Below, piece after piece: positions 4,361-21,686 of a DNA stretch of 35,263 nt. The notes under the pieces were generated by a model. The model was not told where the DNA came from. It worked only from the letters and a program-made list of their open reading frames with translations, and did not search any database. The position numbers and the translations under genes are program-made. Position 1 is the stretch's first letter. The number at the start of each line of letters is the position of its first letter. This stretch comes from Phormidium sp. FACHB-1136 (lineage in GTDB: Bacteria > Cyanobacteriota > Cyanobacteriia > Phormidesmidales > Phormidesmidaceae). The stretch covers positions 1-35,263 of the forward strand of contig NZ_JACJRS010000054.1 of the NCBI RefSeq assembly GCF_014697375.1, read 5' to 3'.

Positions 4361-4390
4361 GGGCCGAGGAGTTTAGGGCCGAGGGGTTTA
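4361..4390. repeat. Tandem 15-bp repeat overlapping a stop codon
   Basis: Two adjacent copies of gggccgaggRgttta (4361-4375 and 4376-4390) differ at one base and are followed by a partial third unit (ggg). The second copy contains the kinase stop codon on the minus strand. It sits between convergent genes 52 bp apart. Confidence 0.7.
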
Positions 4391-6502
4391 GGGTTCCATG
4401 GGTTCGGCCCCTTGCCAAACCCGCACCAGGGGTTGCTTGCCGCCAATGGTGACGAGGTGGCCGTTGGGAAGGACGGTAAACCGCCAAATATCCGTGACAA
4501 ACCCATTCACCTGCCGCACGGGAGCCCGTTGCTGCAAATCCCACACCAAAATCACCTTGTTGGCATCGGCACTCCACAGGTAGGGGCCATCCACCCGCAG
4601 AGTATTGACGTAGCTTTGGTGGCCTTCTAAGACAGCCTGGGACGTTTGGGTGGTTAGGTTCCACAGTCGCACAGTTTTATCAGCGGAGGCGGTGATGAGG
4701 GTTTGGTTGTCGTCGCTGATGGCGATACGGTTCACAAAGCTGGTGTGGCCCTCCAGGGTAATGGGGTCGGGCACCAGGGCCGAATTGGCCGGATCAAGCA
4801 TCGAGAGATCCCACAGTTGCAAGGTAGCCCCACCGCTCACCAGCCAACGGTTGTCGCGGCTAAACAGCAGGTCGTTGATGGTGCCCTCGGCTTTGAAGGT
4901 GTAGCTAGGGCCAGCCTCAGCCATGGTCGCTAGGTTCAGCCCCCCATTGGCGGTAATCAGGGGCCACAGGTGAATGGTGCCGTCGCCGTCGCCACTGGCC
5001 AACCAGCGGTTATTGGTGCTGACCTCCACCGCCGTGGCGGGAATGCTGTGGGCGTTGTCAATTTGCCCTAGGGGTTCGCCAGCGGGCAAGGCCCAAAAGC
5101 GGAGGGCACGGTCATCCCCGGTGCTAATCAGGACGGCTTGATCGGTGGTGGTGGTCAGGGATTTGACGACATTCTTGGACTGGGTGAGGGTCTGCATGAG
5201 GGTGCCCGCCTCCAAATCCCACAGGCGAACGGTGGCATCGGAACTAGCGGTAACGAGGGTTTTGCCATCCCGCAACAGCAGTAGATCGGAAATGTCTTGG
5301 GTATGTCCCGCCAGGGTTAGGGTGGGCGTTACCGTCACCTGCTGGAGGCCGACCCTCTGGGTAACAGGGGATGGCTGGCCCGTCGATCCACCTCGGCTGA
5401 GGGCATACCAGGTGAGCGGAAGTGCCAGGGCCAGCCCCGTCAGCCCCGCCAGCAACCAGGGCCGACCATCCAGCCAGGGAGGCAAAAAGCTTTGGACGGG
5501 CTCCATGTGAGTCGCCGACTCCGGTGGGTTGAGGGTCGTTTGGGGCCAAGGGGGAGCAGGTTGAGGCAGGTTGGGTGGACGGGTGATCTGGGCGGATCGA
5601 ATTTGCCCTAGGCGATCTAGGATGGCAGCGGTAGTGGGCGGTCGGTGGGCGGCGGCGGGGGCAATCAGTTCGTCCACAAAATCCGCCAGGGCCGGAGAGA
5701 TCTGGGGGGCGTGCTCCCGCCATTGAAAGGCATTACTGCGGGGATCGTAGACGGTGGGATCGTTGGGCAACTTCGCGGTGAGTAGGTAAATGAGGGTGCG
5801 GCCCATGGCATAGAAATCCGACTGGGGCACCGCTTGGCCCTGCTCCTGCTCCGGGGGGGTATAGCCCGCCGAACTCACGGTGGTAATGTTGCTGTTGTCG
5901 AGGTCGCCCATGTAGGTTTGGGTCATCTCGCGAGCCGCGCCAAAATCCACCAACACCAACTGCCCCGACGACCGCAGCATAATGTTTTCCGGCTTGATAT
6001 CACGATGGAAATAATGGTGTCGATGCACCAAATGCAGCACATCCGTAAGCTGGGTAAGCCACAGCATCGCCTGCTTTTCGCTAATGGGATGATTCCCCTG
6101 CTGCACCATCCACTGCTTCAGATTAGGGCCGTCGATTTTTTCCATCACCAAGCAGTGGCAGGGTTGGGCACTGTTCTTAGGAAAATACTGAAAATAGCCA
6201 TCGGCATCCACATGGGGCACCCCCGGATGGCTAAGCTGGCTCAACACCTGGGCCTCCCGCTGAAACAGTTCCAGCACCTTGTCGTGGTGGTTATAGCTTT
6301 CCTTCAGCACCTTGAGAATCTTGGGCACGTTGCGCTCGTAGGCTTCGTAGACCCGGCCAAAGCCGCTCTGGCTGCTAATCAACCGCATCACCCGATAGCG
6401 TCCCTGCAATATCAGATCAGAACCACAGGACTGGCACTCCTGACTAACGCTGTTATTGGGATGGTTGGGCTGGTGACAATGTGGGTTTATACAAAGACTC
6501 AT
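4388..6502 (-). CDS. Zinc-ribbon Ser/Thr protein kinase with C-terminal WD40 propeller
   Basis: A eukaryotic-type protein kinase of the cyanobacterial class with an N-terminal zinc ribbon. I chose the ATG at 6502 because homologues begin with M-x-x-C-x-N-P-x-C; here CINPHC is followed by CQSCG (704 residues). The kinase domain (about 35-300) has a shortened glycine loop SGFGRVYEA, the ATP lysine in ILKVLK (Lys64), HRDIKPENIM (His166) and DFGAAR (Asp186), then GYTPPEQ. A proline-rich linker leads to one membrane span (about 349-368), so the kinase is cytoplasmic and the C-terminus outside. About seven WD40-like repeats follow (from about 397), for example TASSDATVRLWDL, enough for a single seven-bladed propeller. 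The kinase residues are intact. The glycine loop starts SSQSGFG rather than G-x-G-x-F-G. The substrate is unknown. Confidence 0.9.
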   Translation of the reverse strand: MSLCINPHCHQPNHPNNSVSQECQSCGSDLILQGRYRVMRLISSQSGFGRVYEAYERNVPKILKVLKESYNHHDKVLELFQREAQVLSQLSHPGVPHVDADGYFQYFPKNSAQPCHCLVMEKIDGPNLKQWMVQQGNHPISEKQAMLWLTQLTDVLHLVHRHHYFHRDIKPENIMLRSSGQLVLVDFGAAREMTQTYMGDLDNSNITTVSSAGYTPPEQEQGQAVPQSDFYAMGRTLIYLLTAKLPNDPTVYDPRSNAFQWREHAPQISPALADFVDELIAPAAAHRPPTTAAILDRLGQIRSAQITRPPNLPQPAPPWPQTTLNPPESATHMEPVQSFLPPWLDGRPWLLAGLTGLALALPLTWYALSRGGSTGQPSPVTQRVGLQQVTVTPTLTLAGHTQDISDLLLLRDGKTLVTASSDATVRLWDLEAGTLMQTLTQSKNVVKSLTTTTDQAVLISTGDDRALRFWALPAGEPLGQIDNAHSIPATAVEVSTNNRWLASGDGDGTIHLWPLITANGGLNLATMAEAGPSYTFKAEGTINDLLFSRDNRWLVSGGATLQLWDLSMLDPANSALVPDPITLEGHTSFVNRIAISDDNQTLITASADKTVRLWNLTTQTSQAVLEGHQSYVNTLRVDGPYLWSADANKVILVWDLQQRAPVRQVNGFVTDIWRFTVLPNGHLVTIGGKQPLVRVWQGAEPMEP

Positions 6503-6934
6503 AACCGACAGCAGAATGCATCCCCAAGTGTGATCCAGTGTTCCACGGAACGAGACGGATGTACCTATCCACAGGGTTTTCTTCGGATTTTCACCCAAAA
6601 TCCATCGGTCTCAGCGACGATCCCAGATTGGAGGGGCTGTGGCTAACGGGGGGATCCGTGGCGGCAGCGAAGGCGAGTGGGTTTAGGGGGTATTGGATAG
6701 CAAGTACGGCCTTGGGCGGGCTAACTAGCGCCCTGGGCATCACCCTATTCTTTGCCGTATCGTCCTAGCCAGGGGCTGGGATAAGGGTGTTCCATGAAAA
6801 TAACCATCCACTGACCATGGCTCTTCGCCCTCTCCCCTGCCCCTCTCCCTGGGGGATGAGGACTTAGCATGGATGCTTAATGAATTGGCGTACTCTAAGC
6901 GCAAAAGTCCGGCTCAGGCGTTGCCCTACCGACG
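6503..6934. other. Intergenic region upstream of the kinase gene
   Basis: About 430 bp between the 5' end of the kinase and the 3' end of the hydrolase, both on the minus strand. It should hold the kinase promoter near 6503-6600, but no convincing -35/-10 pair stands out. A plus-strand frame (6538-6768) with a hydrophobic tail is open but lacks a ribosome binding site. Near 6830-6865 there is a pyrimidine-rich stretch resembling the ccctctccc repeats found elsewhere in the window. Confidence 0.4.
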
Positions 6935-15154: not shown

Positions 15155-16636
15155 CTAGTCCTCTGGCCCAAAGTATTGAGGCACAAAGCTACCGTGTAAC
15201 CCGTAGGGCACATGGTTAGACAGCTTCAGTCGGGCGATGGGGCCAGCGCTGATCGCCTGGGCATCGAGGATCACCAGGTCGGAGCAGCCCCGTTCGGCGT
15301 CGTACATCAGCATTAGCACCCAGCCCTCATCCTCAGCGGTGGCACCGGGACGGGGCACAAACAGGGGTTCTCCGGCAAAGCCACGGGGGGCCGCACTCCA
15401 GACTTCGGTTTTTCCGGTCTGGGCGTCCCACTTCAGCAGCGCTTGCAGGGGGGCGTTGCCTTGGTCGGCCTCGGTGGTGCCGATGAACAGATAGCGGTAG
15501 TCCAAGCCCATGCGGTCGGGGTGCAGGGTGGGGAACTCCACGCAGCGGGAAATCAGGGTTTCGGCCTGGGCTGATTTCGTCGCCAAATCCACCGTAAACC
15601 GCCACAGTTGGCCAGCGGGCACTTTGTCAAAGTCCACGGTTTTATAGTCGGCGCTGTCCTCTAGGCTGGGGAAGCCGTCGTAGCAGACCGAATCAATCAC
15701 CAGTTTGCCCTCTCGCTCGAAGGCGTTGGCGTGGTGGAAGACAAAGCAGGGGTCGGCGTCGATCACCTGCACGGGGTCGGTGCCGTTGCGGGGAATGACC
15801 AGGATTTTGGTGGGCTGTTTGGGGTCAAAGCGAATGCACTCCGCCGCCCCCTTAAAGCCCAGCAGGAAGGGTAGTGGCCCAAAGCTCACCGGGTTCTGGA
15901 AGAAGATGGCGTAGTTGGGGGTGAGGGCGAAATCGTGCAGGAAGGCAAAGCCGGGGACGACGTGGCTGTGCTGGGCGAGGGCGTTGCCTGCGGTATCTAG
16001 CTCATACAAGGTGATGGTGCTGGAGAGGCCCGCCTTGGCCGCAAATCCGACGAGACGCGGCTGTCCGTGATGACCTGGATCGACCCTGGGGTGGGCGGTG
16101 AAGGCTCCCTCTGGAGCGATTAGGCCATTAAACGTATCCAGCCCAAAGGTGTCTAGGGTAACGGGATCTAGGCGATGGGGCGGTGCCGCTTCCCACAGGG
16201 CCAGCAGGCGGTCGGCCCAGTAAATAATGTTGGTATTGGCGATATTTTTGAGCTTCAGGTCAAAGGCATTGGCCAGGGGGCCACCGGGCTTTTGGGTACC
16301 AAACACGCCGCGATAAAGGGGCTTTTTGGCCTGCTGTTCCGCCAGATAACCCGCCGTCCGCACAAAGCGATTGCGGAAATAGGCCCGCCCGTCCTTGATG
16401 GCAATGCTGCTGATCATGCCGTCCCCATCGAAGGGATGCTTCACCGGATACCCCGCCACATCCAGCAGCCCCGGCCCATTGCGAAAGAGGGTACCCTCTA
16501 GCTCCGTGGGAATCGCCCCCTCAATGTCGCTAATCCAATAGCTGTACTCGTTGGGCTGAGAGCGATAACCGCTACACCAGTCTTCGCGGCTGTAGGGCTT
16601 GGGGTTTGTGGTGGGTTTGGGTTGGGTTGCGGTCAT
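15155..16636 (-). CDS. Carotenoid oxygenase (apocarotenoid 15,15'-oxygenase-like)
   Basis: Non-heme iron(II) dioxygenase that cleaves a carotenoid or apocarotenoid double bond, giving aldehyde products such as retinal. The 493-residue protein (ATG 16636, with a GAGG box nine bases upstream) has the four-histidine iron site of the RPE65/CCD family: His182 (TAHPRVDP), His234 (FLHDFALT), His301 (FHHANAFE) and His481 (GLHGSFVP). Spacing closely follows the Synechocystis enzyme. The early motif LFRNGPGLLD and HPFDGDGM are also typical. No signal peptide is visible. It is downstream of a BT1 transporter on the same strand with a repeat block between. Exact substrate cannot be read from sequence. 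Confidence 0.93.
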   Translation of the reverse strand: MTATQPKPTTNPKPYSREDWCSGYRSQPNEYSYWISDIEGAIPTELEGTLFRNGPGLLDVAGYPVKHPFDGDGMISSIAIKDGRAYFRNRFVRTAGYLAEQQAKKPLYRGVFGTQKPGGPLANAFDLKLKNIANTNIIYWADRLLALWEAAPPHRLDPVTLDTFGLDTFNGLIAPEGAFTAHPRVDPGHHGQPRLVGFAAKAGLSSTITLYELDTAGNALAQHSHVVPGFAFLHDFALTPNYAIFFQNPVSFGPLPFLLGFKGAAECIRFDPKQPTKILVIPRNGTDPVQVIDADPCFVFHHANAFEREGKLVIDSVCYDGFPSLEDSADYKTVDFDKVPAGQLWRFTVDLATKSAQAETLISRCVEFPTLHPDRMGLDYRYLFIGTTEADQGNAPLQALLKWDAQTGKTEVWSAAPRGFAGEPLFVPRPGATAEDEGWVLMLMYDAERGCSDLVILDAQAISAGPIARLKLSNHVPYGLHGSFVPQYFGPED

Positions 16637-16670
16637 GGTAAGAAACCTCATGGATCGGGAAACCAGGGAA

Positions 16671-16767
16671 GCCCTCACCCTAAATTCCTCTCCCAAATTG
16701 GGAGAGAGACTTTGAAGGATTTTTCCGGCTCCCCTCTCCTCGTGGGAGAGGGGCTGGGGGTGAGGGC
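16671..16767. repeat. Nested inverted repeat between transporter and carotenoid oxygenase genes
   Basis: Outer arms gccctcaccc (16671-16680) and gggtgagggc (16758-16767) are exact complements. Inside are two further stem-loops, ctctcccaaattgggagag and ctctcctcgtgggagag. This ccctcaccc...ctctccc block is a common dispersed repeat in cyanobacteria. It lies between two co-directional genes and could separate or attenuate their transcription. Confidence 0.85.
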
Positions 16768-16793: not shown

Positions 16794-18185
16794 CTAAACA
16801 GAAGCCGTTTCTTGGTCGGGGTTATGGGGCGGCGGATCGGCGGATTGCCACAGAATTTGGGCGTCCTCGCTGCCTTCCCCTTGGGAGGATGTCGCAGGCA
16901 GTAGGGCCAACAGGGGCAGGGGCAGCAGCGTCGTCAGGTTGGTGATCAGCACCAGTTGCCAGAGGTGATCAAAGTTGGTTTCTGTCACCTCCAGCCAGTG
17001 GGTGAGCAAGGCCCCCAACTCGTGGGAGAGCAGCCCCGCCAGGTTCACAATCGACATCAGCAGGGCGAACAGGGTGGCCTCCACACCGGGCGGACAAAGC
17101 CGCGCCGACAGCACCAGCACGGGCATGAAGGCAATCTCTCCCATCACCGTCAGCACCAGGCTGTCGCCCAGGCTAAACCACTGGTCGTCGATGCCGAGGC
17201 TGCGGTTGGCGTGGGTGACCAGCAGCAGCATCGACATCCCCAGCAGGCTAGAGAGCACCGTTGACCAAGCAAAAATGGTGCGAAAGGGCACCGTCCGCAG
17301 AAACCGCTGAAATACCCAAATGCCCAGCAGCGCCGCCACACTCGTCACCAGCCGCACCCGACCCAGAAACTCTGGCTGAAAGCCCAGGTCGTTGGTGGTG
17401 AAAAAGAAGAAGGCGGCATCGGCGGTGGGGGTGGCCTGCCACAGAAACAGAAATAGCGCAGGCATCCAGATCGCCCGCTGGCGAATGGCCTGCCAAAGTT
17501 GCCCCATCTGCCCCTGAATTACCGACCACGTAGGGGATTCCTCCACGGGATCTTCCTGGATAATCCAGGCGACGCAGGACACAATCAGCGGAAAGGTCGC
17601 CGTGATGGCAAACACCGCGCGGGTGCTGACTTGCTCTAGCAACACGCCGCCCAGGTAGGCCGTCATTAGGCCACCCACCGCCGAAGCGCCCCAGGCCAAG
17701 GATTGCAGGGTGCCTGCTTCGCCTTGGGATTCGCCCCGCGCCCGTTCCACCACCAGGGAATCGACAATCACGTCGCCGATGGCCACCGAAAGGGAACTGA
17801 GGGTAATCGCCAAAATCGCCGCCCAGCCCGACTGCACCACCGTCGCCAGAGCCAGCCACGCCGCCGCCCCCAACAGGCCCGACAGCACCAAGTAGGGCCG
17901 TCGCCGATAGCCCCCAATGGGCAAGCCATCAGAAATAAAGCCAAACAGGGGCTTAATCGTCCAGGGCAGGGCGGCGATCCCCGTTAATGCGGCCACCTCC
18001 GCCGGAGTCAGGCCCAGATCGTCCTTGAGGAAAAAGCTTACCGCCAGCCGCGCTAACCCCAAAATGCCCTGCACAAAATAGACCACCAAAATGGCCACTA
18101 GCTCGGAGGTGAGGGGTTGACCCTGGAGAATGCGGTTCTCTAGGAACCCTTTGATGCCCCCAGAGGACGATGACGATACAGCCAT
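16794..18185 (-). CDS. BT1-family folate/biopterin transporter (MFS)
   Basis: A polytopic carrier of the BT1/FBT group, which moves folates, pterins or related small molecules across the membrane. With the ATG at 18185 (a TTG six bases upstream is possible) it has 463 residues and about twelve hydrophobic segments. Family-type motifs are LVVYFVQGILGLARLAVSFF, WTIKPLFGFISDG and GYRRRPYLVLSG in the first three helices, and GDVIVDSLVVERAR in the middle. The C-terminal tail is acidic and proline-rich. It precedes the carotenoid oxygenase on the same strand. Cyanobacterial members transport folate in some cases, but substrate assignment here is only by family. Confidence 0.88.
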   Translation of the reverse strand: MAVSSSSSGGIKGFLENRILQGQPLTSELVAILVVYFVQGILGLARLAVSFFLKDDLGLTPAEVAALTGIAALPWTIKPLFGFISDGLPIGGYRRRPYLVLSGLLGAAAWLALATVVQSGWAAILAITLSSLSVAIGDVIVDSLVVERARGESQGEAGTLQSLAWGASAVGGLMTAYLGGVLLEQVSTRAVFAITATFPLIVSCVAWIIQEDPVEESPTWSVIQGQMGQLWQAIRQRAIWMPALFLFLWQATPTADAAFFFFTTNDLGFQPEFLGRVRLVTSVAALLGIWVFQRFLRTVPFRTIFAWSTVLSSLLGMSMLLLVTHANRSLGIDDQWFSLGDSLVLTVMGEIAFMPVLVLSARLCPPGVEATLFALLMSIVNLAGLLSHELGALLTHWLEVTETNFDHLWQLVLITNLTTLLPLPLLALLPATSSQGEGSEDAQILWQSADPPPHNPDQETASV

Positions 18186-18282
18186 AGACAAGCACGATCC
18201 TTGACAGTCTTAGTACAAGCCAACATTAAGAAATGTCAACTTTGTCCTTCATCATAGCCTGTCCCTCCAAAGTCCGCAGAGC

Positions 18283-18528: not shown

Positions 18529-18882
18529 TTAAAAGGTGAGAACTTTATCGGCTTCAACCGTCCATTGGGTAAGTTGGCTCATCGTGCTGTGTTCAATGCC
18601 ATCCATCAACGGCAAGTCTCGAATGCCCCGTGCATCGGCACAGGTGCCACAGGTTTTCACCTGGCCGCCTTTGTGTAAGACAGCTTTGAGCATTCGCTCG
18701 ATGTTGTAATAGCCCTGGGGTGTAGATTGATTGGGCAGGGCACAGGTCACGGCATCGGCCATCAGAAAGATCAGCACTTCAACTGACGGGTGTTCTTTTT
18801 GCAGAGCCATGGCCATGCGAAAGGCGTTGTAGGCTTTTTCGGTGCCGTAGGGGGCATCGTTAAGGATGAACAGAGTTTTCAT
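18529..18882 (-). CDS. DsrE/DsrF-like sulfur-relay family protein
   Basis: Small cytoplasmic protein (117 residues) of the DsrE fold, whose members carry or transfer persulfide sulfur or bind small ligands. MKTLFILNDAPYGTEKAYNA at the start and VEVLIFLMADAV in the middle are typical. Cys78 and Cys81 in KTCGTCADARG are the conserved reactive pair; Cys47 is a further candidate. The ATG at 18882 has a GAGG box nine bases upstream, in a leader almost identical to that of the carotenoid oxygenase gene. It follows the rhodanese-containing operon by 69 bp on the same strand, which supports a role in sulfane sulfur handling. Confidence 0.88.
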   Translation of the reverse strand: MKTLFILNDAPYGTEKAYNAFRMAMALQKEHPSVEVLIFLMADAVTCALPNQSTPQGYYNIERMLKAVLHKGGQVKTCGTCADARGIRDLPLMDGIEHSTMSQLTQWTVEADKVLTF

Positions 18883-18951: not shown

Positions 18952-19800
18952 TCAACCAGCCTTGGGACGGGATGAGAGCGTTGTGTCATCGGTCTGCCTG
19001 CTAAACGGCAGCAGTAGCACCCAGGGCAGTTGAGCGACCCGCAGCGTGTTTTGATACTCCGTCAAACCAATGGTCATGCCCTGGTTGCCCTTGGCGGGGC
19101 GGGCTCGATAGGTACCAAACAGGTAGTCCCACCAGGGCAGGTTAAACCCATAGTTGCTATTGGTTTCCTGGGTTATCACCGAGTGATGAATGCGATGCAT
19201 GTCGGGGGTGACAACAACCCAGCGCAGCAGGCGATCCACCGAACGGGGCAAACTGACGTTGCCATGGTTGAACATGGCGGTGGCATTCAGCAGCACCTCA
19301 AAAATAAGCACCGCCACCGGGGGCGCACCCAGCAGGGCAATCGCCGCAATTTTGATGCCCATGGACAGGAAAATTTCGATGGGATGGAACCGTAGCCCAG
19401 TGGTGACATCGAAATCGCGGTCGGCGTGGTGAACCTTGTGCAACCGCCAGAGGGTGGGCAGGGCATGGAACATCACATGCTGCCAGTAAATCACCAGATC
19501 CAGCGCCATGACAGAGAGCAGGATCGCCAGCCACCCCGGTAGCGCTACCACGTTGAATAATCCCCACCCCTGTTCAGCCGCAATGGCCGCAAACCCCACC
19601 GCCGCCAGGGGAAACCCCGCCCGCAATAGCACCGTATTCAGCACCACCAACCCCAAATTACTGCCCCACCGCAGCGGCTTCGACACCGATAGGCGACGGC
19701 TGGGGGACAGGCGTTCCCAGAGGGCCATGATCCCTAAGATGCCAAAAAAGAAAACCGAGCGAATCAGGGGTTCTTGAACCAAAAGGGTGTCTTCAAGCAT
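18952..19800 (-). CDS. Fatty acid hydroxylase/sterol desaturase superfamily protein
   Basis: Integral-membrane di-iron oxygenase, 282 residues, predicted to hydroxylate or desaturate a lipid. It carries the histidine boxes of the superfamily: HVMFH (His108, His112), HKVHH (His121-His125) and HRIHH (His202-His206), with extra histidines in RFHP (139) and FNHGN (179). Several hydrophobic segments (about 12-30, 48-75, 88-106, 146-176) place the boxes on the cytoplasmic face. The start overlaps the end of the upstream VTT-rhodanese gene by 8 bp, so the two are co-translated. Carotenoid ring hydroxylases use related boxes, but the HxxxH-HxxHH-HxxHH spacing fits the sterol desaturase branch. The substrate is unknown. 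Confidence 0.87.
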   Translation of the reverse strand: MLEDTLLVQEPLIRSVFFFGILGIMALWERLSPSRRLSVSKPLRWGSNLGLVVLNTVLLRAGFPLAAVGFAAIAAEQGWGLFNVVALPGWLAILLSVMALDLVIYWQHVMFHALPTLWRLHKVHHADRDFDVTTGLRFHPIEIFLSMGIKIAAIALLGAPPVAVLIFEVLLNATAMFNHGNVSLPRSVDRLLRWVVVTPDMHRIHHSVITQETNSNYGFNLPWWDYLFGTYRARPAKGNQGMTIGLTEYQNTLRVAQLPWVLLLPFSRQTDDTTLSSRPKAG

Positions 19801-20836
19801 GGTGGGTCTCTCCTCGATGCGGTGCAGCGGTTTGGATTGGGAATTGGTTGCGTTGCCAGTCGGTCATGCCACCTTTGACCACGCTGACCTGGGTAAAGCC
19901 GGAGCGCATTAACTGTTGGGCCGCCTGACTGGATCGTCGATCCGTGCGACACACTAGAGCCAGGGGGTGGTCTTTACCCATCGGTAGTTGCGTCGGATCC
20001 TCTGGCCGCAAAGCTTCCAGGGGAATATTCAGCGCCCCTGGAATGTGTCCTGGCTCTCCCCAAAAGTCGGCTTGACTGCGAACGTCGATGACCCAGATGG
20101 GATCTTCCGCTTGCAAACGGCGCTGCAATTCAACGGTGCTGATCATCGTTAGCGGGCGTAGGTGCTTGACCAAGCGAGGCATAAAAGCCACCAGAGCCAG
20201 CAGCGATAGGGCCAATAATCCTTTTTGGATGGCGTCTTCGCCGCCTGCAATGGCTTCTCGTCCGGCATAGCCCAGGTAGGTATAGGCGATGGCACCGGGT
20301 AGCATAAACAGGTAGGAAGCCAGCACAAAGTGAGTCAGCGGAATGCGGGTCAGCCCTAGGCCGTAGTTCAACAGGTTAAAGGGCAGCAGCGGCACCAGGC
20401 GCACCAGGGCCACAAAGCGCCATCCTTCCGCCTCTACCCCCTGTTTGAGTTGCTTTAACTGGCCCCCCACCCGATGCTCTACCCAATCCAGGGCCAGGTA
20501 GCGGGCCATCAAAAAGGCGAGCGTGGCTCCCAACACCGCTCCCGTGAGGTTGTAGAGGGTGCCCCAAACAGGGCCAAACAGAGCCCCTCCGGTCAGAGTC
20601 AGTACCGATCCGGGCAACAGTAACACCGTGGCGATGGCATAGACCACCATGAACACCAGAGGGCCGAAGATGCCAGCTTGGGCCACCCAGCTTTCCAGAT
20701 TGACCGCAGCAAAGGACTGGCGATAGGCCAACGCCAACGGGAGTCCGCCAGCCAACAGGGCCATCAGCCCCAGGCGAGCCACTTTGGGGGACAGGTTCAG
20801 CCCCGTTGGCCTTAAAAACCGACGATAGCGAGTCAT
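19793..20836 (-). CDS. TVP38/TMEM64 (VTT/DedA-like) membrane protein fused to a rhodanese domain
   Basis: A 347-residue fusion. Residues about 20-220 form a VTT/DedA-type membrane domain with the signature LLLPGSVLTLTGGALFGP (about 73-90) and LVRLVPLLPFNLLNYGLG (about 145-162). Residues about 235-335 form a rhodanese domain: WVIDVRSQADFW, GHIPGALNIPL, and the active-site loop LVCRTDRRS with Cys296. I prefer the ATG at 20836 because GAGGTG lies six bases upstream; a GTG at 20845 would add three residues. VTT proteins are linked to lipid transport or scrambling, and rhodaneses carry persulfide, so the protein couples membrane and sulfur chemistry. It follows the ArsR-rhodanese stop within 20 bp. 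Confidence 0.9.
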   Translation of the reverse strand: MTRYRRFLRPTGLNLSPKVARLGLMALLAGGLPLALAYRQSFAAVNLESWVAQAGIFGPLVFMVVYAIATVLLLPGSVLTLTGGALFGPVWGTLYNLTGAVLGATLAFLMARYLALDWVEHRVGGQLKQLKQGVEAEGWRFVALVRLVPLLPFNLLNYGLGLTRIPLTHFVLASYLFMLPGAIAYTYLGYAGREAIAGGEDAIQKGLLALSLLALVAFMPRLVKHLRPLTMISTVELQRRLQAEDPIWVIDVRSQADFWGEPGHIPGALNIPLEALRPEDPTQLPMGKDHPLALVCRTDRRSSQAAQQLMRSGFTQVSVVKGGMTDWQRNQFPIQTAAPHRGETHHA

Positions 20837-20854
20837 GCTCAGCACCTCAGACCG

Positions 20855-21514
20855 TTAAACATGGACAGGTAAACCTTCGGCTTTCCATTCGGGATAGCCT
20901 TCCTGTAGTCGCAGGGCGGTAAAGCCCTGCTGTTGCAGCAGCGCCGCCGCGTCATGGGACAGGGCACAATAGGGGCCACGGCAATAGGCCACCACCTCAC
21001 CATCGGCGGGCAATTCCTGCAATCGCTGGGTCAGTTCCGCCAGGGGAATGTTGATCGCCCCCGGCAGATGACCAGCGGCATATTCCTCCGCAGGCCGGAC
21101 ATCCAGCAGGGTGACGCGGCCCGTCTGGAGGCGATCTACCAAATCGGGAATGGTAATGGCCTCCAGGCCATCGCCGCCCTGGAAATATTGCGTCATCAGT
21201 TGCTGCACCTCGGTCAAATTCCGCTCAGCTACCCGCCGCAGCAGGCGAGTTAACTGCACCACCTCGTCATCGGCCAGGTGGTAGTACACATAGCGCCCCT
21301 CCTTGCGGGCCGTGACCAACCCACTACGGCGCAGGTGCTGCAAGTGCTGGGACACCGTGGCAATGGGCAAATCCATCAGTTGGGTGAGGCTCTCGACGCT
21401 GCGATCCCCCTGGGCAATCAACTCCAACAGTTCTAAGCGATACTCATGCCCCAGCGCCTTGGCCAGGGTGGCCAACTGCTCCAACAGTTGCCGTTTGCGA
21501 TGGGCGATAGTCAT
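20855..21514 (-). CDS. ArsR-family regulator with C-terminal rhodanese domain
   Basis: A 219-residue regulator. Residues about 10-100 are an ArsR winged helix (ALGHEYRLELLELIAQGDRS, IATVSQHLQHLRRSGLVTAR, then EGRYVYYHL). Residues about 115-219 are a rhodanese domain with LLDVRPAEEY, GHLPGAINIPL and the loop AYCRGPYCALS, in which Cys178 is the expected persulfide carrier and Cys183 a second thiol. The helix-turn-helix lacks the classic metal-binding ELCVCDL motif, so the signal is likely sulfur or redox rather than arsenic. It heads the minus-strand operon with the VTT-rhodanese and hydroxylase genes, and an AT-rich palindrome sits just upstream, consistent with autoregulation. Confidence 0.92.
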   Translation of the reverse strand: MTIAHRKRQLLEQLATLAKALGHEYRLELLELIAQGDRSVESLTQLMDLPIATVSQHLQHLRRSGLVTARKEGRYVYYHLADDEVVQLTRLLRRVAERNLTEVQQLMTQYFQGGDGLEAITIPDLVDRLQTGRVTLLDVRPAEEYAAGHLPGAINIPLAELTQRLQELPADGEVVAYCRGPYCALSHDAAALLQQQGFTALRLQEGYPEWKAEGLPVHV

Positions 21515-21534
21515 TGTTTTAACCCGTCATAAAT

Positions 21535-21562
21535 ATTCAATTACTATACGGAATAATTGAAT
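21535..21562. promoter_or_regulatory. AT-rich palindrome, likely ArsR-type operator and promoter
   Basis: attcaatta (21535-21543) and taattgaat (21554-21562) are exact complements separated by 10 bp. On the minus strand the spacer contains tatagt, a good -10 candidate, so a bound dimer would cover the promoter. The site begins 21 bp upstream of the ArsR-rhodanese start and stands out from the GC-rich surroundings. The opposite-strand rodZ-like gene starts at 21687 and could share the region. Confidence 0.65.
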
Positions 21563-21686
21563 AATATTGTCGCCCACCTGCGACGAATCCCAAATGGGGA
21601 TGGACGAACCAAGACATCCATTACCGCCATCCATTAAAATAACTTCGTTTAGATTCGTTAACCATCGCCGAGTTCAGGGAGGTCGC

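Follow-up and report, generated by a model that had tools for sequence, protein, structure and literature searches.

A putative sulfane-sulfur-responsive membrane operon with a rhodanese-fused ArsR repressor in the cyanobacterium Phormidium sp. FACHB-1136

Introduction

The Escherichia coli ygaVP operon, in which a SqrR/BigR-like repressor responds to sulfide and regulates the rhodanese-containing operon that encodes it (PMC9774250; this and the other sources are cited from excerpts), is the closest described system to the four-gene locus analysed here, which lies on a 35,263-nucleotide contig of the cyanobacterium Phormidium sp. FACHB-1136 (NZ_JACJRS010000054.1, assembly GCF_014697375.1; the whole contig is called the window below). 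In both loci an ArsR gene is followed on the same strand by a gene for a membrane rhodanese, YgaP being a membrane protein according to its PDB name. The two systems differ in their sensors and partners: YgaV lacks a rhodanese and senses through cysteines of its ArsR part, whereas the repressor in the window carries a fused rhodanese, and its partner is a VTT protein to which a hydroxylase and a DsrE protein have been added.

The repressors SqrR, BigR, SoxR and sHdrR likewise use two cysteines in the ArsR part for sensing, while many sHdrR-like regulators are without this pair and may work otherwise (PMC12423496, PMC10451225). The SqrR binding site reads ATTC-N8-GAAT (PMC9774250). The regulator in the window resembles these proteins in its ArsR fold, in a cysteine pair that might form a sulfur bridge and in an operator built from ATTC and GAAT; it differs in that their ArsR cysteine pair is absent and in an operator spacing of N12 rather than N8. 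For the membrane partner, a survey of DedA proteins records rhodanese fusions in COG0586, a connection that it calls unclear, and describes COG0398 (TVP38) members, distinguished from the COG0586 DedA proteins by the lack of an acidic residue at the tip of the first re-entrant helix, as possible scramblases whose most frequent fusion partners are disulfide reductases (PMC10127716). These fusions share with the present locus a VTT domain bearing a redox or sulfur end domain; the excerpted survey names no cluster of a fatty acid (FA) hydroxylase with an ArsR-rhodanese. The gene group is also not described in the excerpts of PMC10812762, PMC9774590 and PMC10127716, and we did not find the combination described in the open-licence literature, the coverage of which is incomplete, so that its absence there is weak evidence.

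We propose, with moderate confidence and from sequence comparisons, that the four genes constitute a membrane module whose regulator represses its own operon and responds to sulfane sulfur. The group is found again in Gamma- and Betaproteobacteria, mostly in carriers of soxB or dsrA, together with a shared operator. It offers a test case for whether a repressor can sense through a rhodanese domain, would add a VTT protein and a membrane hydroxylase to the players in sulfur metabolism, and suggests that a module of sulfur oxidisers can move into an oxygenic phototroph.

Results and discussion

Four genes on one strand, two with rhodanese fusions

A sequence-only reading of this DNA had named an ArsR-rhodanese, a VTT-rhodanese, a lipid hydroxylase and a DsrE protein as a sulfur-responsive group. 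All four are open frames of the minus strand and lie between a rodZ-like gene on the plus strand (from 21567) and a folate-biopterin-type transporter gene on the minus strand (16794-18191), and every Pfam domain named here scores above its gathering threshold. The first gene (20855-21514; 219 aa, ATG start) encodes an ArsR-family helix-turn-helix (HTH) repressor with a C-terminal rhodanese, and the second (19793-20845; 350 aa, GTG start, with an in-frame ATG three codons later) a TVP38/DedA-type VTT membrane protein that also ends in a rhodanese. They are followed by genes for a membrane protein of the FA_hydroxylase/sterol-desaturase family (18952-19800; 282 aa, ATG start) and a DsrE-family sulfur-relay protein of the YchN type (18529-18882; 117 aa, ATG start); the latter falls outside 18952-21562, the span to which the earlier reading had assigned the group.

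The first two genes are separated by 9 bp, the VTT and hydroxylase genes share the 8-bp overlap that had been reported, the hydroxylase and DsrE genes are 69 bp apart, and the next gene lies 337 bp beyond DsrE. From this spacing and the common strand we infer that the four genes are co-transcribed. On the strand of the operon a sigma-70 scan returned no promoter, and the number of sites resembling terminators was at the level of shuffled sequence (5 found versus 4.1 expected).

Recurrence of the gene group in relatives

An alignment of two VTT-rhodaneses was used to scan 84,980 species, and the best 80 of 180 relatives were kept, so the set leans towards close relatives. These 80 loci come from 79 genomes (L109 and L125 share one) and include Thiobacillus, Thiocapsa, Thiohalocapsa, Thioalkalivibrio, Sedimenticola, Sulfuritalea and the Solemya velum symbiont, as well as many other Gamma- and Betaproteobacteria, a few alphaproteobacteria and two Planctomycetota. 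The hydroxylase gene lies directly upstream of the VTT-rhodanese gene on the same strand in 65 of the 80 loci (61 of the 76 with at least 900 bases of upstream sequence). An ArsR-rhodanese gene is found in 56 (54 of the 69 whose upstream sequence reaches 1900 bases or more); 48 of these genes are on the opposite strand and 8 on the same strand, and 50 loci hold both hydroxylase and regulator. Cultured sulfur oxidisers with the trio include Thioalkalivibrio sulfidiphilus ALJ17 (L119) and Sedimenticola selenatireducens DSM 17993 (L139), the latter with DsrE as well. DsrE matches occur in 25 loci, at 49-57% identity in 18 and 28-32% in 7. By comparison, none of 29 control loci around VTT-only cyanobacterial proteins, each only about 3.5 kb long, contained the hydroxylase, and one gave a partial ArsR-domain match.

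Three Roseibium plasmids carry the regulator with the VTT-rhodanese, and in the two that were inspected the hydroxylase gene stands between them; in the first of these the hydroxylase is 61% and the VTT-rhodanese 52% identical to its counterpart in the window. A Roseibium VTT-rhodanese (L054, 4036-5000) appears to be frameshifted N-terminally, with matches in two frames, and is annotated as a short VTT protein. The genes thus stand together by more than chance, and the return of the trio in distant proteobacteria supports the earlier proposal that they form a functional group.

Other genes recur near the relatives. MerA-like FAD reductases are found near 13 of the 80, sulfide-quinone-reductase-like genes in 4 (directly after DsrE, with a score below the model cut-off, in L139), and a MerA-like reductase, a multiheme cytochrome or a NapH-GltD-like fusion near 35. 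The quinone-reductase, MerA and ArsM models all scored below their cut-offs, and those gene names are therefore loose. The multiheme cytochromes and the NapH-GltD-like fusion recur beside the hydroxylase/VTT pair (L070, L118, L130 and others), and one of the cytochromes resembles hydrazine dehydrogenase (202 of 900 bits).

Sulfur oxidation in the host genomes

The thiosulfate-oxidation protein SoxB was searched for in all 79 relative genomes and DsrA in the first 50. SoxB exceeded its curated cut-off in 58 of the 79 (36 of the first 50 and 22 of the remaining 29). DsrA did so in 32 of the first 50, and 42 of those 50 had one or the other. Neither protein exceeded its cut-off in any of 14 control genomes, which alone make up the comparison. 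The 8 genomes among the first 50 that had neither at full strength include Porticoccus, two Planctomycetota and two Thiobacillus assemblies, the last with fragments. Taken as genomic predictions, the SoxB and DsrA counts bear out a sulfur-oxidiser distribution; with the two intact-cysteine rhodaneses and the DsrE protein they fit the sulfur role assigned to the genes in the sequence-only reading.

The Phormidium genome has photosystem II genes and, away from the window, a gene whose product shares 40% identity with the sulfide-quinone-reductase-like protein of L139. This gene (L183, G000:C50, 3969-5339) has Rieske-like and transporter-like frames nearby, named by eye.

A conserved operator before the regulator

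The interval 21535-21562, singled out earlier as a regulator site, indeed holds an exact ATTC-N12-GAAT (21535-21554), an operator conserved before many ArsR-rhodanese genes. The operator lies inside a perfect inverted repeat read from the sequence, TATTCAATTA-N10-TAATTGAATA (21534-21563), which also gives an exact ATTC-N20-GAAT match. We scanned up to 180 bases before the regulator in the 48 divergent loci, those whose regulator gene lies on the opposite strand, with 30 Markov shuffles for comparison. ATTC-N12-GAAT was present exactly in 37 of the 48 (shuffle mean 0.2), and allowing one mismatch raised the count to 45 (shuffle mean 4.5). Other exact spacings stayed near shuffle level except N20 (11) and N4 (4), and the SqrR-type ATTC-N8-GAAT occurred exactly in none of the 48. 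The consensus across these loci is TATTCAA-taATtaa-TTGAATA.

Besides the window, the exact N12 operator is found in the sister genome G001 and in Roseibium. At six other plasmid loci, where the regulator has different neighbours, it is exact in four and has one mismatch in Bosea; one mismatch is also seen in G077, a further genome of the phylum. Its presence at regulators with different neighbours indicates that the operator tracks the type of regulator and not the VTT and hydroxylase genes. A TTGACA box overlaps or adjoins the regulator start codon in 41 of the 48 divergent loci, and the operator lies 20-25 bases beyond it in 34 of the 40 loci listed. This box looks like the -35 element of a promoter reading into the opposite gene, the start of which the operator would cover.

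Genome-wide, TATTC-N12-GAATA occurs at two sites in the Phormidium genome, one in G001 (at the operon) and one in G014, a relative without the operon; the same pattern written backwards, as a control, gave one, one and none. A large regulon was rejected, as these counts are at chance level relative to the control. The second Phormidium site lies inside a 1067-aa frame and not before a sulfur gene. With two sites versus one in the control, the circuit looks local.

The regulator and its rhodanese loop

The regulator belongs to the ArsR/SmtB family (NF033788, 82 bits versus a cut-off of 55), with Pfam scores of 33.1 for HTH_5 (cut-off 22) and 71.7 for Rhodanese. It had been described, together with the VTT protein, as carrying a C-terminal rhodanese with an intact cysteine, and both proteins do. 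The residue given for the regulator, Cys178, is right; the one given as Cys296 in the VTT protein is Cys299 when counted from the GTG start, the earlier number fitting the ATG three codons later. Cys178 and Cys183, both in the active-site loop CRGPYC, are the regulator's only cysteines. They are invariant in 57 of 57 aligned regulators (CRGPxC-like loop), the same CX4C pair is present in 11 of 11 further ArsR-rhodaneses from plasmids and other genomes, and no cysteine is conserved in the HTH columns of the 57 rows.

The cysteine pair that SqrR and BigR carry in the ArsR domain is absent from the window regulator and from the 57-row alignment, and so, if the regulator senses sulfane sulfur, we infer that its rhodanese must be the sensor. 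The protein also falls short of the cut-offs of the BigR model NF040642 (52.8 of 155 bits) and the TsoR model NF045707 (63.8 of 115 bits). It may be a variant that works like SqrR and BigR, but we do not file it as a member because it fails in the features tested, namely cysteines, operator spacing and model cut-off.

The regulator matched 217 plasmid records, 208 of them over at least 80% of its length; such matches are common in Lactiplantibacillus (45 records) and Leuconostoc (33 records). The corresponding search with the VTT-rhodanese gave 154 records, none covering more than 80% of the query, and among the 30 of these listed only three Roseibium records reach the rhodanese part. Given the 217 plasmid matches, the few VTT-rhodaneses listed and the retention of regulator and operator in G001, the regulator seems able to do without a membrane donor. 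The suggestion that persulfide passes from the membrane rhodanese to the regulator thus finds no support and is not needed, as the regulator often occurs without that partner.

The membrane proteins and DsrE

The VTT-rhodanese scores 93.0 bits for VTT_dom (PF09335; cut-off 33.9) and 66.2 for Rhodanese. Cys299 is its only cysteine and is kept in 79 of 80 relative rows. In a structure model of mean pLDDT 85.7, short helices at 79-90 and 156-164 could be re-entrant loops; the structural matches listed for this model are to the rhodanese domain, so the VTT part is barely probed by them. A cytosolic position of the rhodanese domain is suggested by basic residues that follow the final hydrophobic segment. 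By eye, the tip of the first re-entrant helix, LPGSVLTLTGGALFGP, contains no acidic residue, and many plasmid VTT matches are annotated as TVP38/TMEM64.

Characterised members of the FA_hydroxylase family act on lipids. The hydroxylase in the window scores 107.3 bits against PF04116 (cut-off 31) and, like OlsE and other enzymes of this family, has complete histidine boxes (H108/H112, H121/H124/H125 and H202/H205/H206), invariant in all 68 or 69 rows that cover them. Unlike OlsE it adjoins rhodanese genes, and it is far below the cut-off of the OlsE model NF052566, at 91.7 of 475 bits. Its structure model is mediocre (pLDDT 74.6) and gave no structural match at E 0.001, nor did its sequence match the PDB at E up to 1. 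Lipid oxidation, which the sequence-only reading had offered as a function, is on this evidence a guess from the domain name.

The DsrE protein (PF02635, 86.5 bits; cut-off 22.7) shares its family and a conserved cysteine, Cys78, kept in 26 of 26 rows, with the YchN/DsrE/TusD proteins. It matches YchN (PDB 1jx7, E 1.5e-31) and differs from TusD in falling below the cut-off of model TIGR03012 (36.6 of 89.25 bits).

A proposed mechanism and its competitors

In the proposed sulfane-sulfur-responsive module, the repressor would sit on 21535-21554 and block the operon. Sulfide oxidation or thiol chemistry would raise sulfane sulfur, Cys178 in the regulator's rhodanese loop would take up a persulfide and probably form a sulfur bridge with Cys183, whereupon the repressor would leave the DNA. 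The derepressed operon would yield the membrane module, in which the VTT part may move a lipid or a hydrophobic sulfur species, the cytosolic rhodanese attached to it would accept sulfane sulfur at Cys299 and hand it to Cys78 of DsrE, and the hydroxylase, in the same membrane, would oxidise a lipid or hydrophobic carrier. Overall, membrane-soluble sulfur would be contained or used during sulfide exposure. A bolder and speculative version, to which we give little credence, is that the regulators are a distinct repressor class that senses sulfane sulfur through the fused CX4C rhodanese and controls a sulfur-oxidiser module whose FA_hydroxylase-family protein oxidises what the VTT-rhodanese delivers, either membrane-dissolved sulfur or a sulfur-carrying lipid, possibly as a membrane-embedded sulfur oxygenase.

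Several observations weigh against the proposed module. The adjacent hydroxylase is missing from 15 of the 76 loci with enough sequence and the regulator from 15 of 69. In the same-strand relatives the hydroxylase comes first in 65 of 65, the VTT-hydroxylase order of the window being found elsewhere only in G001. The N12 operator is absent from a Bradyrhizobium plasmid locus, from G053 and from G086, and in the loci with a collinear ArsR gene it is exact in none of 8 (one mismatch in 3). ArsR-rhodanese genes also adjoin genes of MFS, MBL, MerT or nucleoside phosphorylase type. The Phormidium genome and G001 are both without SoxB over the cut-off, and the loss of the VTT and hydroxylase genes in G001, described below, indicates that the module is dispensable in cyanobacteria.

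A further such point, genes of the arsenosugar type (ArsS, TIGR04283 and TIGR04282, all above model cut-offs) within about 6 kb of the VTT-rhodanese in 24 of the 80 loci, also favours the foremost competing explanation. Here the ArsR-rhodanese would sense arsenic, selenium, tellurium, copper or sulfite, and the VTT protein, hydroxylase and DsrE would detoxify the metal, metalloid or oxyanion. The ArsR/SmtB fold of the regulator agrees with this, as do ArsM-like methyltransferases in 14 of the 80 loci, a copper ATPase adjoining the Roseibium cluster, and plasmid homologues with MerT (two) or a metal ATPase (one) nearby. We nevertheless hold it to be rather unlikely: the HTH part is without a conserved cysteine, the only cysteines of the window protein being the rhodanese pair; two rhodaneses and a DsrE protein point to sulfur, as does soxB or dsrA in most relative genomes; and ArsS lies elsewhere in the Phormidium genome, as it also does in G014, which is without the operon. 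The arsenosugar-type genes nevertheless amount to a link between sulfur and arsenic genes in the relatives (L065-L144).

Less probable still is a thiol-oxidation switch, in which a disulfide stress or reactive chlorine or oxygen species would produce a plain Cys178-Cys183 disulfide and the operon would repair or remodel membrane lipids. The invariance of the CX4C pair and the lipid activity of characterised FA_hydroxylase enzymes are compatible with such a switch, and the MerA-like FAD reductases near 13 relatives belong to the class to which COG0398 DedA proteins are most frequently fused (PMC10127716). However, the sulfur-oxidiser distribution and the intact rhodanese cysteines fit sulfane sulfur better, and a thiol switch leaves DsrE unexplained.

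Distribution in cyanobacteria and origin of the operon

Conservation of the gene order in other cyanobacteria had been put forward as a check on the group, and it was not borne out. A full-length ArsR-rhodanese is present in 2 of 23 genomes of the genus (2 of 38 relatives), the Phormidium genome and G001, and at E 1e-20 in 4 of 386 genomes of the phylum, again with the Phormidium genome included. The other three, G053, G077 and G086, gave no photosystem II match, and one of them is only 64% complete. Within the genus samples, close hydroxylases occur in the Phormidium genome and G001, with weaker matches in G022 (38%) and G003 (28%). No full-length regulator was found in G014 or in G021, the latter 87% complete; TatC identity to the window is 97% for G014, 95% for G021 and 90% for G001.

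In G001 the group stands in other surroundings, with a regulator 95% identical to that of the window and the operator kept. Its VTT-rhodanese (L061/L175, G001:C108) is a 3' relic of about the last 54 codons with a stop, and its hydroxylase has His125 replaced by Tyr and a stop near its end. The rodZ-tatC segment is common to the window, G014, G021 and G001, and the similarity is lost at about 21615, so these genomes do not define where an insertion would begin and end.

In the VTT tree (65-row set, midpoint root) the window protein is a long single branch inside mostly proteobacterial rows (support 100/91). FastTree trees of the regulator and the hydroxylase join the window to G001 with support of 100 and have weak surrounding forks, the regulator standing near L134 and alphaproteobacterial plasmids and the hydroxylase in an open 31-row fork. 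The simplest reading is acquisition of the operon from proteobacteria, its GC content now being close to that of the window. That the operon is an acquired island kept by chance or decaying, with no current role in this cyanobacterium, would suit its presence in just two genomes of the genus samples and the VTT relic and damaged hydroxylase of G001, but is very improbable given four open frames, intact active-site residues and operator, and a GC content (58.1%) close to that of the window (56.9%).

Elsewhere in the window, an RPE65-family protein (481 bits) is encoded at 15155-16696, two genes downstream of the operon, and a protein kinase with fused WD40 repeats at 4388-6598.

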